Shown: one piece after another, positions 36,116-63,666 of the stretch
Position numbering within the stretch: the first letter of the stretch is position 1
Layout: every line of letters starts with the position of its first letter
Assembly: GCA_021234155.1 (NCBI GenBank)
Contig: JAJEKV010000084.1
Coordinates: forward strand, 3,879,449-3,943,448
Length of the DNA stretch: 64,000 nucleotides
Source of the DNA: Isoetes taiwanensis
Lineage: Eukaryota > Streptophyta > Lycopodiopsida > Isoetales > Isoetaceae
Direction of reading: 5' to 3'
Notes under the pieces: generated by a model
Seen by the model: the letters and a program-made list of their open reading frames with translations, nothing else
What the model was told of the DNA's origin: nothing
The model's database searches: none
Position numbers and translations under genes: made by a program

Positions 36116-36230
36116 TATATATATATATATATATATATATATATATATATATATATATATATATATATATATATATATATATATATATATATATATATAT
36201 ATATATATATATATATATATATAGATATAT
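36116..36230. repeat. (TA)n microsatellite, about 115 bp, left edge of the array
   Basis: Nearly pure AT dinucleotide run with one G at 36224, immediately before AAATTCGCAATATTTTAATC, the conserved first sequence of each unit. Confidence 0.97.
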
Positions 36231-37094
36231 AAATTCGCAATATTTTAATCTATTGTAGTCTGCTCTATTCTAGTTTACTTCAAAATTATGTGGACTTATA
36301 ATCCATGGACTGGTTTAATCCATGGCATAGGGCAGATAACATTAGGTTTAAAGTTTTTTTGGCTGGAGCATTATCCACCCTGGAACATGGTTAATTTGAA
36401 GGGGCATTAATTGCCTTTATCCTTGCATGTCCAAGTGAGCATCTAATAGTGCAACAAAAAAGGTTGAATACACTTGCCCTAATTTGGGTATATCCTAACC
36501 CCTATGGTATGAATTATGGAATGAAATGATAAGGGGTGAAGGATAAATATTGATGAGCATTTTCTACCCCCTAGTAGTTAAATTAAGGATGGATTAAATT
36601 AGGATTATGATTACAGGCCAATGGTTGGTGGGAATACGAATATGAAGTTGTTGCATAGGTCAGGTATTGGGGGGTGATAGGGGCAAACATCCCAAGGTAT
36701 AAAATGGCTATGGGTATTATGGCGTTTATATGGGCACTTGGTAACTTATGCTCGAAATGTGTTACACTTAATTAACTAATATTTTTCAATAGTACTTACA
36801 CCAACAGTTTTGTTGGCTAACTCTAATTTGAAAGGCAACCCTAACGATGGGGTGTCGTCTACGACGGCCTTGGGCTGATAGGTGCTGACGGATCCCTAAC
36901 GAACCATGGATGACCTTTTCGGAGTTTGTTACATGCAAAATATCGACATCTCGGATTGATCAAGACAGGTAACCAGCTGTTATGTTCCTTTTTCTTAATC
37001 TTCTTGTTATATTTGCTTAAGACAGACTGGTTTTTGGTTTTCTCGTAATCTGGTTTAGCCTCCATGCTATATAATATGATCAGATCCCTCTACC

Positions 37095-37436
37095 ATGAAC
37101 ACGAATTTTGGCATGAGTAAGGCTGGCCGACCTGAGGGTGTGTGCAATAAAGGGCAGACCAGATCTAAACTCATTGAATTCCTTAGAAGGAATGGCTTAG
37201 AGCATAGTAGCCCGCAGCCTACTAAAGCTCAACTGTTAGAGATGTGCAGAGCCCATGGATTAGATCCAAATAGGGACAAGAGTGATTCTGGAATTATAAA
37301 ATTCCTCCCTAGTCTGAATGCATGTGGGAATATCTCTAGATCTGGTAATACAACAAGCGGCAATGTGGAGATTGTTGCTGACTCTGAAATTGATGAAATT
37401 GAGGAAGATTCGGATGATGGAGTGCAACCAAATCAG
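37095..37436 (+). CDS. U1 SAP-like first exon (114 codons)
   Basis: MNTNFGMSKAGRPEGVCNKG, then two helix-extension-helix-like segments (SKLIEFLRRNGLEHSS; KAQLLEMCRAHGLDPN), the second matching the SAP pattern of short DNA-binding modules, then an acidic tail (EIDEIEEDSDDG). It ends at a phase-0 donor CAG|GTTCCT. The same exon is found in all four units, which supports it as coding. Start chosen at the ATG shared by all copies. A separate small protein from unspliced RNA (reading on to 37571) is possible. Confidence 0.65.
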
Positions 37437-38655
37437 GTTCCTACAATTGAATTGTCTAATACTGGTTTCCTAACCATTTTATGTAATACTCACTGTTATG
37501 ATAGAATGATTCTTAGTGGCATTAGTATTGCATGTCACAATAATTGTAGACATAACATGCTAGCATGCTAGTAGATTACTACAGTTCTGCATGAATTGCT
37601 TATTCGAAATTAAGATGTAATGTTATAATCCATAGGTTGATAACATCTGGTTAAGGTATATTTATGTTAAATTGTGGGTAAAGGGCAGAAATGCCAAGAG
37701 AGTTCATTGCTTACCTGTTAGCAGTAGGATTTTTTACCCTCTTAAGGCTAATTAGTTCTATTTGCTGCAGGTAACCGAGCTCTCTTCTCCTGCATCTGGT
37801 TCTGTTTTTTGCATGGAAGCATGAATGATTGAAGAATGTTTTTATGTACTACTGTATTTATATTGTATACAACGTTTATGGTAAGTTTTTGATCCCTTCA
37901 AGTTTAATTATTCAATGGAGTAACTGTATGGTAAACTCTTAATCCTTTTGTGTATTGATATTTTGAAAATTATTTATGGCTGTTTTTTACTGCTTGGTAA
38001 AACATGTTTGGAGCACCTTGAAGTAATTTATGGTAATATAATTATGGATCTCAGCCTTTGGCTGCATTTTCTTATTCTGTTTCCATACTTGCCTACTTTT
38101 TGGTTCATCCAGTGGTTTTTAAATTTGCATGGTGTTTTCCTGGTTAATTTTAAGACTTTGGATATTGCCCTTCTTTTTAGATCATGCTGGGATTTGACAC
38201 ATCTACAGTTCTCTTCAACAGTCTATTCCAAATTGTTGTACAAGTTATTTTACAAGTTATTTAGCAATTTTATGGTACAGCATATTGCCTGTTGTGGATG
38301 ATTTCCTTTTGCTACAGGTTAATGTGTATCAAAGTAGTATGGTCAAGGTTAAATAATTGTATTATTAAATGAGTTGAGCTGGTCCTTATCTTTAGACTTG
38401 TCTATGGTTAAACTATTATATGGTTACATGATCTCTAAGGGCTCCCTCTTTAGGGTCCAATAAATTCAGTAGTCTTATTTAGTTAGGTTAAGGCTATTTG
38501 AATGTCTAGTCAAGTAGAGGCTTGGTTAGGCCAATCTATATATCTCCCCACTTTGGATCACTGGTTTTACTGGTGAAGCCCTTAGAGATTGATGTAGTCT
38601 TTTATTTTGCATTATTCTTATCCTAATGGTTACTAATGTGTATTCTGTTCTTTAG

Positions 38656-60883: not shown

Positions 60884-61250
60884 AGCCAGAAAATAGGAAG
60901 GGAATATGGACTTGGAAGGTAAATTATTTTTTTTTAAATAGCTTATAAAGGAAGTACAAAGATTTATTAAGATTTAATGAAATAATAAAATATCTACTCT
61001 AATTATTGCTTGTGTAAGGCCTATTTGTAAGGCCTAAGATAGTACCATCATGGTGATAATATCTTATTAAATTTTAGGTATTACTACTAGTTTTTTTATT
61101 AAACTCCACCATTGGCTTTATTTTCTTTATAATCCACCAATTGTTTTAGGACATTTTTAACCTTTAGTTGGCGGGAGGGTCCCTTTGTTAGCAAAGGGAT
61201 CCTCCAATCCCTTTTGTTAACATATGGGACCTTATCGCCCCTTATGGGGG

Positions 61251-61277
61251 ATATATATATATATATATATATATATA
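61251..61277. repeat. (TA)n at the U3/U4 junction
   Basis: 27 bp of AT repeat in the same context as the other junctions, though the flanks are altered (CTTATGGGGG before, GGTTCTCAATATTTT after). Confidence 0.93.
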
Positions 61278-63583
61278 GGTTCTCAATATTTTCCAATCTG
61301 TTGTATCACATCTATTCTAGTTTACTTCAAAATCTTGGGCATAGCATAATGGTTGGACACATTATGTGGACTTATAATCCATGGACGGTTTAATCCATGG
61401 CATAGGATCTTTAACATTAGGTTTAAAATTTTTTTTGGCGCAAAAGCCTTGGCCACCACGGAACATGGTTAATTTGAAGGGGCATTAATTGCCTTTATCC
61501 TTGCATGTCCAAGTGAGCATCTAATAGTGCAACAAAAAGGTTGAATACACTTACCCCAATTTGGGTATATCCTAACCCTATGGTATGATTTGAGAATGGA
61601 ATGATGAATGATAAGGTATGAAGGATAAATATGGTTGAGCATTTTTTACCCCCTAGCAGTTAAATTAAGGATGGATTAAATTAATATTATGATTCTAAAG
61701 CCAATGGTTGGTGGGAATCAAAATATGAAGTTGTTGCATAGGTATGTGTTGGGGGATGATAGGGGCAAACATCCCAAATGGTAAAATGAATATGGGTATT
61801 ATATGGTGTTTATATGGGCACTTGGTAACTGGTAAAATGTGTTACATAATTAACTAATATTTTCAATAGTACCTACAAAGTTTTGTTGGCTAACCCTAAG
61901 AAAAGGCAACCCTAGCGATGGGGTGTAAGTCTCTGACCTTGGGCTGATAGGTCTTGACGGATCCCCAAAACCATGGATGACCTTTTGATTGTTTGTTACA
62001 TGCAAAATATCGACATCTCCTGTTTGATCAAGGCATGTAAACAAACAAGTATGTTCCTTTTCTTAATCTTCTTGTTATATTTGCTTAAACAGCGGTGGTT
62101 TTGGTTTTCTATAATGCTGGTTTAACCTCCATGCTATATAATATGATCCGGATCCTCTACCATGAACACGCATTTTGGGCATGAGTAAAATTTCGTCGAC
62201 GAGGGTGTGTGCAATAAAGGCGCACGGATCTAAACTCATTGAATTCCTTAGAAGAATGGCTTAGAGCATAGTAGGCCCGACCTACTAAAAGCTCAAGCTA
62301 TTAGAATTGTGGAGCCCATGGATTAGATCCAAATAGGGACAAGGGTGATTACGGAATTATAAAATTCCTCCCTAGTCCGAATGCATGTGGGAATATCTCT
62401 AGATGCAGTAATACAACAAGCGGCAATGTGGAGTTTGTTTCGCTCTAAATTGAAGAAATTGAGAAGATTCGGATGATGGAGTGCAACCAAATCGAGGTTC
62501 CTACAATTGAATTGTTTAAATGCTGGTTTCTAACCATTTTATGTAATATTCTTTGTTATGATAGGGTGTTCTTAGTGGCATTAGTATTGCATGTCACAAT
62601 AATTGTAGGCATAACATGCTAGCATGCTAGTAGATTACTACTGATTCTGCATGAATTGCTTATTGAAATTAAGATGTAATGTTATAATCCATAGGTTGAT
62701 AACATGCAGTTTTAGGTATATTTATGTTAAACTGTGGGTAAAAGGCGTAAAATGCCAAGAGAGTTCATTGCTTACCCGTTAGCGGTGGGATTTTTTACCC
62801 TCTTAAGGCTAATTAGTTCTATTTGCTTTGCGGTGTGAGCTCTCTTCTCCTCATCGATCTACGTTTTTTGCATGGAAGCATGAATGATTGAAGAATGTTT
62901 TTATGTACTCTTGTATTTTATTGTATACAACGTTTATGGTAAGATTTTGATCCTTCAAGTTTAATTATTCAATGGAGTAAATCGTATGGTAAACTCTTAA
63001 TCCTTTTGTGTATTGTATTTTGAATATTATTTATGGCTGTTTTTTACCTTGGTAAAACATGTTTGGAGCACCTTGAAGTAATTTATGGTAATATAATTAT
63101 GGATCTTAGCCTTTGGCTTGCATTTTCTTATTCCATTTCCATACTTGCCTACTTTTTGGTTCATCGATGGTTTTTTAAATTTGCATGGTGTTTTCTGGTT
63201 TAATTTTAAGACTTTGGGTATTGCCCTTCTTTTTTAGATCATCTTTGGGTTTGACACATCCGTACAGTTCTCTTCTTCAAACAGGTATTCCAAATTGTTG
63301 TACAAGTTATTTTACAAGTTATTTAGCAATTTTATGGTACAGACATATTTGCTTGTTGTGGATGATTTCCTTTTGCTACATTTATTTGAAAAGGTTAATG
63401 TGTATCAAAGTAGTATGGTCAAGGTTAAATAATTGTATTATTAAATGAGTTGGCTGGTCTTATCTTTAGACTTTTTGTCTATGGTTAAACTATTATAGTT
63501 TACATGATCTCTAGGGCTCCCTCTTTAGGGTCCAATAAATTCGATGGTCTTATTTAGTTAGGTTAAAGGCTATTTTGAATGTC
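61278..63583 (+). mobile_element. Array unit U4, truncated in intron 1
   Basis: Follows the other units through the 5' region, the SAP exon and most of intron 1, then stops at GAATGTCTA, where U1 and U2 continue GTCAAGTAGAGG. A long TA tract begins exactly there and unrelated sequence follows. No RT or B3 part. Confidence 0.85.
62162..62496 (+). pseudogene. U4 SAP-like first exon, frame-broken
   Basis: Collinear with 45436-45777. The GRPEGVC region is garbled (AAAATTTCGTCGACGAGGG where U2 has AAGGCTGGCCGACCCGAGGG), and further indels follow to the donor region ATCGAG|GTTCC. Confidence 0.75.
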
Positions 63584-63666
63584 TATATATATATATATAT
63601 ATACTATATATATATATATATATATATATATATATATATATATATATATATATATAAATATATATA
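63584..63666. repeat. (TA)n microsatellite, about 83 bp, right edge of U4
   Basis: AT repeat with one C at 63604, ending ATATATATAAATATATATAAACA. Confidence 0.95.

Follow-up and report, generated by a model that had tools for sequence, protein, structure and literature searches.

We analyzed a window of 64,000 nucleotides from the genome of the lycophyte Isoetes taiwanensis (assembly GCA_021234155.1, contig JAJEKV010000084.1, positions 3,879,449 to 3,943,448 of the forward strand); all positions below count from its first letter. From 36.2 to 63.6 kb, the window holds a tandem array of a composite unit, in which a reverse transcriptase (RT) exon is preceded by smaller conserved exons and followed by a B3 gene on the opposite strand. 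An earlier note, made from the sequence alone, had described three full units and one truncated unit repeated head to tail. Self-BLAST bore out the head-to-tail repeat: the copies start near 36205, 44525, 52896 and 61251, are 87–92% identical and about 8.35 kb long, and are joined by (TA)n microsatellites. The periods of 8341, 8375 and 8351 bp hold, as do the starts of the SAP-type exon at 37095, 45436 and 62162; the fourth start, given as 53811, agrees with a match that begins at 53819. The order and number of the units also stood, but "full" fits only unit 2, the sole unit of the window in which all tested exons are open.

Layout of the array

Unit 2 runs from 44525 to 52895 with its leading (TA)n junction (44525–44547), and from 44548 to 52895 without it. 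On the plus strand, it carries a SAP-like exon (45436–45780), a conserved module termed MID (46990–47463) and a second conserved module, EXB, with several invariant cysteines (47870–48469). A gap at 48470–48777, a putative retained intron, separates EXB from the RT exon (48778–50850), in which the motifs CxC, DKAANN, DITKCYENIP, GIPMGFASSP and FRYIDDLL can be read. The antisense cargo gene follows on the minus strand, with the exon for B3 domain 2 at 51631–51888 and that for B3 domain 1 at 51944–52528; the gap between the two coding matches (51889–51943) is part of another putative retained intron. The unit closes with a conserved structured 3' end (52800–52895, plus strand), the last letters of which are GGAGGTAGGA.

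The other units share this plus-strand orientation. Unit 1 (36224–44524) begins behind a TA microsatellite of 108 bp (36116–36223), which forms its outer 5' boundary, and its 3' tail ends at 44523. It holds the SAP exon (37095–37439), MID (38656–39126) and EXB (39557–40126), followed by a broken RT (40435–42489) and a broken antisense B3 gene (43275–44098). Unit 3 (52921–61250) lies behind the junction at 52896–52920 and has the same order. In units 1 and 3, numerous frameshifts and stops interrupt both the RT and the B3 frame. The terminal sequence of unit 3 is a variant: at 61200–61250 it terminates in GCCCCTTATGGGGG in place of CTGCC...GGTAGG, where by eye a short hairpin is conceivable. 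Unit 4 (61278–63583) follows the junction at 61251–61277, carries the 5' part only, with the SAP-type exon from 62162, and ends at about 63583 at a TA tract, the closing (TA)n tracts occupying 63584–63656. Between units 1 and 2, the gap before the RT is 99.7% identical with no indels, and the alignment of the RT exon contains 42 gaps. The frameshifts are unevenly spread within units 1 and 3, and some may be residual long-read errors.

The labels of the N-terminal modules were examined with Pfam. The SAP-type exon is conserved and in place, but the name "SAP-like module" used in the earlier note is weak, as the Pfam SAP matches (E 0.26 for the window copy, 0.026 and 0.0049 for two relatives) are all below the cut-off. 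The window copy of EXB matched nothing in PDB or Pfam.

Dispersal and class of the reverse transcriptase

The genome searched comprises 1,658,258,908 bases in 1110 contigs. The searches list best-scored matches only, and the counts are therefore lower bounds. A 694-residue RT query gave 64 matches over at least 599 residues, at 58–100% identity and on many contigs, the window's own included; 50 of the 64 lack a stop. The RT core alone was found at 150 places or more. Copies outside the array, which the earlier note had proposed to look for, thus exist: many contigs carry RT copies and tandem units, and 17 same-strand pairs of RT cores less than 12 kb apart are spaced 7.4–12.0 kb. The order SAP-MID-RT was the same at all eight loci for which 5' flanks were fetched (on C985, C1056, C1089, C1067, C1108, C1025, C952 and C935), although the SAP match at C952 is weak. 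Among 20 RT loci (L009–L028), all 12 on contigs longer than 10 Mb sit more than 1 Mb from the contig ends, which need not be telomeres. One RT copy, on C1033, has an open frame of 1286 aa (696 aa with the RT-core query) and may lack the gap before the RT.

Pfam RVT_1 matched all 13 aligned RTs, weakly (best 3.5e-5). All 13 also contain CxC (CVC, CIC or CPC) before GH(I/V)RTTD, and DKAANN likewise lies N-terminal to the RT motifs. We take CxC and DKAANN to be hallmarks of the Naiad/Chlamys clade of Penelope-like elements (PLEs). In hhalign, the family RT profile aligned over 357 columns with a metazoan DKAANN-type RT (probability 97.6, E 3e-12), and the controls, an RVT_1 hit from the same genome and a LINE-like open reading frame (ORF) of the window, reached probabilities of 0.2 and 0.1. 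The match to the metazoan RT is a strong lead and not a membership test. The RT is most likely that of a CxC-containing, Naiad/Chlamys-like PLE, an assignment based on motifs and one comparison sequence; to that degree the "RT of Penelope type" of the earlier note is probable. The RT had no hit in NCBIfam, viral contigs or phage records, and the metazoan RT likewise found no relative in viral contigs. A search for GIY-YIG domains listed 121 matches, several groups of which are near-identical in score and ORF length (e.g., 129 or 144 aa) and lie on many contigs; they look like repeats unlinked to the RT family.

Cargo, unit ends and putative introns of the dispersed copies

Each of the two putative B3 domains was matched separately by Pfam B3 (6.9e-5 and 8.4e-5). 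Both matches are significant yet fall short of the curated threshold of 30.1 bits. Linkage to the RT was determined with 101 of the at least 150 listed matches of one exon, B3b, against 153 RT entries (150 cores and 3 from the long query, one place occurring twice) at a distance of up to 4 kb. At 43 places the antisense B3 sits 0.6–3.7 kb downstream of an RT core on the opposite strand, compared with about 0.01 expected by chance under uniform placement. The linked copies comprise 43 of the 68 B3b matches at 64% identity or more and none of the 33 below (Fisher p 4e-11). Counted from the RT side, 43 of the 150 listed cores have a tested B3 downstream: 9/13 at 75% identity or more, 21/55 at 66–75% and 13/82 below. 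Within 1.5 kb before 30 unit 3' ends, we found an antisense B3 at 13, an RT at 14 and neither at 3. Linkage at other loci was thereby confirmed, whereas constant linkage was rejected, the B3 being present in only a subset of the family. On a tree of 20 RTs, the presence of B3 requires four changes, two of them forced by supported branches; shuffled labels gave as low a number in 137 of 500 trials, so that copies with B3 cluster no more than random labels would.

Upstream of the array lies the 5' part of a related unit of another subfamily, joined to unit 1 by the 108-bp TA tract. It consists of a first exon of a second type, SAP2 (34386–34721, plus strand; 27% identical to the SAP exon of the array), and an exon termed e2 (35296–35529, plus strand), which elsewhere follows B3 genes. 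SAP2 has no Pfam SAP match and at least 150 listed matches in the genome; with 123 of the 150 used, 36 same-strand pairs lie less than 12 kb apart, 34 of them spaced 6.7–8.3 kb. We compared 81 of the at least 150 listed e2 places with a portion of the listed B3b and SAP2 matches. A B3b exon lies 596–850 bp ahead of e2 in the same orientation at 28 of them, a SAP2 exon at 37 and neither at 16. The e2 exon (at 1260–1499 in L073) is thus common to SAP2-type units and dispersed B3-B3-e2 genes. In the B3-B3-e2 family, the B3b exon is 50–63% identical and lies outside the examined RT units. We considered these copies as a second RT element and rejected this, as the 7.4 kb read at C1100 contained neither a convincing RT match nor a 3' tail. 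Copies at C1100 and C1067 (L073–L076) are 94–98% alike in blocks totalling about 4.3 kb, noncoding sequence included. Such near-identical copies on different contigs suggest recent dispersal without a visible RT. The B3-B3-e2 family shares e2, in sense, with one element subfamily and B3, in antisense, with a second. Capture from host to element would be the simplest reading.

The ends of the units were then compared across the genome. The 3'-end motif CTGCCTTCCGGYAGGAGGTAGG has 59 exact copies, and its reversed control has none. A TA tract lies within 30 nt of the 3' end in 29 of the 32 ends read (2 in the window and 30 fetched), compared with 23 of 3150 window positions. Searches of the retrieved loci for four kinds of unit start gave 26 hits, all directly after TA; three are places that occur in two loci, leaving 23 distinct starts, of which 18 come right after the exact 3' motif of a previous unit. 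The remaining five are four outer array ends (window position 36232, L029, L038 and L042) and the start of unit 4 behind the variant tail of unit 3. A SAP-type exon follows within 1.5 kb at 15 of 30 3' ends (E <= 1e-3, some weak), and the junction of tail, TA and start recurs on C112, C412, C457, C952 and C1025.

For the terminal 96 nt of unit 2, the predicted folding energy is -45.5 kcal/mol (z -4.78), and none of 200 shuffled sequences folded as well. Over 25 aligned ends (24 distinct), a consensus structure has 99.1% of its cells paired and differs from the single-sequence fold. Double changes occur in 2 of 19 pairs, a number reached by 3 of 500 shuffles and by 4 of 6 slid controls; the covariation is weak support because four of the six slid controls have as many. 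The 3' end is accordingly described here as a conserved RNA predicted to fold stably, on the grounds of pairing and stability.

We next consider the introns. ACAG precedes the RT exon in 16 of 20 copies inspected, and the gap between EXB and the RT exon measured 204–375 bp in 19/19 copies (the ends are partly extrapolated, and L012 has no EXB match). For the B3 exons, 73 of at least 151 listed places of the other exon, B3a, were used, 68 of which paired with a B3b exon. The gap was 50–276 bp in all 50 copies at 64% identity or more and 59–66 bp in all 18 below. Dispersed units therefore keep intron-sized gaps in genes on both strands, so that the "retained introns" of the earlier note hold as gaps. 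An antisense template has been proposed to explain intron retention in PLEs (PMC3846280). For the present units an antisense template alone is insufficient, because the B3 intron would then be spliceable. With such gaps in genes on both strands, an unspliced template or copying at the DNA level is therefore needed.

Compared with unit 2, the RT copies gave a dN/dS of 0.04–0.18 where dS was computable, several pairs being saturated. The B3 exons gave 0.03–0.26 except for B3a of L020 (0.39) and B3b of L020 and L025, in which no amino acid is changed. Other B3a pairs ranged from 0.04 to 0.27, but L018-L026 reached 1.19 (pS 0.01). Between unit 2 and L025 (on C952), identity at third codon positions is 53% in the RT, 97% in B3b and 87% in B3a; across the B3 gap, 91% of positions are identical. 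On C952, identity stays near 50% from the RT stop to the B3, rises to 94–97% over the next 600 bp and then drops to 87%. The difference at fourfold sites is 0.62 for the RT (n = 122) and 0.09 for the B3 (n = 96; p = 1.6e-16). Over 91 pairs, the ten most discordant all set the unit-2 clade against L020 or L025; the median fourfold differences are 0.41 for B3 and 0.63 for RT, B3 being generally less diverged. These comparisons indicate that the B3 cassette has moved between element lineages in one clear case.

Elsewhere in the window, upstream of the array, LINE-like ORFs were seen by eye at 14627–18452 (minus strand) and 30003–31623 (plus strand), with motifs such as FADDTFLF. Repetitive ORFs rich in a short RYTPQMA-like motif occupy both strands at 10119–12284.

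Interpretation and comparison with known elements

We consider it probable that the units belong to a dispersed retroelement family, presumably a CxC-containing PLE, which inserts at (TA)n, accumulates head to tail and carries a modular B3 cargo in a subset of its copies. The mobile composite element of the earlier note is upheld in its dispersal and linkage, but not in a universal B3 or in the SAP label, and its Penelope class is no more than probable. A mechanism can be proposed. The RT would bind the 3' RNA structure, and a TA-rich DNA end, paired with the UAUAUA found where units join, would serve as the primer for reverse transcription; a dedicated endonuclease (EN) would then perhaps be unneeded. 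Telomeric PLEs have been proposed to use telomere repeats as primers in a parallel manner. The template would be unspliced RNA, the SAP-like N-terminus may help to bind AT-rich DNA, and the double-B3 protein could act as a DNA-binding regulator for the element, in promoter activation or anti-silencing. A bolder possibility, which we put forward tentatively, is a plant PLE that needs no endonuclease, uses (TA)n microsatellite ends as primers through its own (UA)n junction and carries a selected, exchangeable antisense double-B3 regulator.

Several observations weigh against the family as we read it, or against parts of the mechanism. The TA tails may be products of insertion rather than targets, and no empty site was seen. 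The putative introns were measured as gaps, and their donor is unmapped in diverged copies; the covariation of the 3' RNA is weak. As to the cargo, B3 is absent from many RT copies, and for 25 of the 68 closer B3b matches the expected place holds no RT core (8 of them lie within 12 kb of an RT in a different arrangement, and for the other 17 none is listed). Only 28 of the 46 best B3a matches are free of stops, and the B3a pair L020-L025, in which both copies hold stops, has a dN/dS of 0.96 (pS 0.10), so that constraint is not evident in all pairs. The mosaic contrasts essentially two RT clades, and one event may explain it because the ten most discordant pairs are all of that kind; in some close pairs the B3 is more diverged than the RT, e.g., L018-L019 (0.18 vs 0.07). 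The class depends on motifs and on one comparison sequence, and the profiles of RT, EXB and MID had no hit in PDB. A GIY-YIG endonuclease was rejected both in the exons and near the RT copies: Pfam found none in the scanned exons, and all 153 RT entries are 84 kb or more away from the closest listed match, although a strongly diverged EN could be missed. A hammerhead ribozyme, a motif of the canonical EN(+) types, was likewise rejected, with no Rfam match in the stretch scanned (33–64 kb of the window); Naiad and Chlamys are not known to have one either.

The main rival is amplification at the DNA level, in which units mainly multiply locally as (TA)n tracts slip or undergo unequal crossing-over, retrotransposition is rare, and introns are kept by DNA copying. 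The (TA)n at the junctions supplies homology for unequal exchange, the units of the array are 87–92% alike, unit 4 stops at a TA tract, and introns on both strands require no RNA step. However, the RT is under purifying selection across dispersed copies on many contigs, which local exchange alone would not give, and the identical tail-TA-start junction on five contigs also speaks against it; we regard this explanation as unlikely. A little more credible, but still on the doubtful side, is that the B3 is a passive passenger, a host gene trapped in the 3' region whose constraint comes from occasional host use. Many units lack B3, stops occur in 18 of the 46 best B3a matches, and the B3-B3-e2 family outside RT units (50–63% B3b identity) could be its source or relative. 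The mostly low dN/dS over strongly diverged copies and the cassette transfer between RT lineages fit a passenger poorly.

The RT could also belong to another class, for instance a lineage related to telomerase or similar to LINEs, in which case the likeness to PLEs would be confined to tandem structure and introns. The missing GIY-YIG and hammerhead and the weak RVT_1 match leave room for this, but the profile strongly fits the DKAANN-type RT and does not match the RVT_1 hit or the LINE-like ORF; CxC and DKAANN, intron retention and tandem units all fit PLEs, and we consider another class quite improbable. Finally, judged on the window alone, the array could pass for ordinary host genes that were duplicated locally, without any mobile element. 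The dispersed linked RT-B3 copies, the genome-wide 3'-end motif and the tandem units on many contigs led us to reject this reading, to which we give practically no weight.

The copying mechanism of PLEs is little understood (PMC11167929), and the template strand and the reason for intron retention are left open in PMC3846280. Units with intron-bearing genes on both strands offer a direct test of this question. If the tentative reading above is true, spliceable introns on both strands would mean that the copied template is unspliced whichever strand is used. With a plant regulatory gene kept under selection and exchanged between element lineages, the family would moreover stand out among retroelements for maintaining and trading a transcription-factor-like cargo. 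The (TA)n boundaries suggest an integration route without a dedicated endonuclease.

Naiad and Chlamys elements carry an N-terminal GIY-YIG and have a microsatellite bias, and Chlamys occurs in spike mosses. The present family resembles them in the CxC N-terminal to the RT, in a DKG-like motif, in its tandem units and in its association with microsatellites; it differs in that GIY-YIG was not detected, the N-terminus is made of SAP-like, MID and EXB modules, and an antisense B3 is present in a subset. Chlamys is named in PMC12477816. For land plants, PMC9033089 lists Dryad, a PLE of conifers, and EN(-) elements of both Selaginella and conifers; our searches of open-access papers listed none with a title or opening abstract lines on a PLE of Isoetes or lycophytes or on a B3-carrying retroelement. 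Dryad is likewise a PLE in a land plant, but it is of the EN(+) Penelope/Poseidon type and attributed to horizontal transfer, with no cargo described in the available part of PMC9033089.

In general, PLEs form tandem or partial tandem units (pLTR organisation, PMC11167929) and keep introns in dispersed copies (PMC3846280); the present family has the tandem units and has intron-sized gaps. The EN-deficient telomeric PLEs, i.e., Athena and the Selaginella EN(-) PLE (PMC12477314 and PMC9033089), share with it an RT without a detected EN, a possible pairing repeat at the unit end and presence in a lycophyte. Here, in contrast, the junctions read consist of (TA)n instead of telomere repeats, and those sampled copies that are on long contigs have interior positions. 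The Terminons of bdelloid rotifers (PMC12477314 and PMC5408684) are also chains of a PLE-class RT that carry or trap extra genes, with modules shared between element types. They are giant and telomeric with many ORFs, whereas the present units mostly measure 7–9 kb, have a single antisense B3 gene as cargo and showed neither a link to telomeres nor a hammerhead. Finally, rotifer Penelope elements that move host genes (PMC3846280) likewise copy intron-containing genes together with their introns. In that case the host gene lies between terminal repeats and is moved in trans, whereas here the gene lies antisense inside dozens of units.

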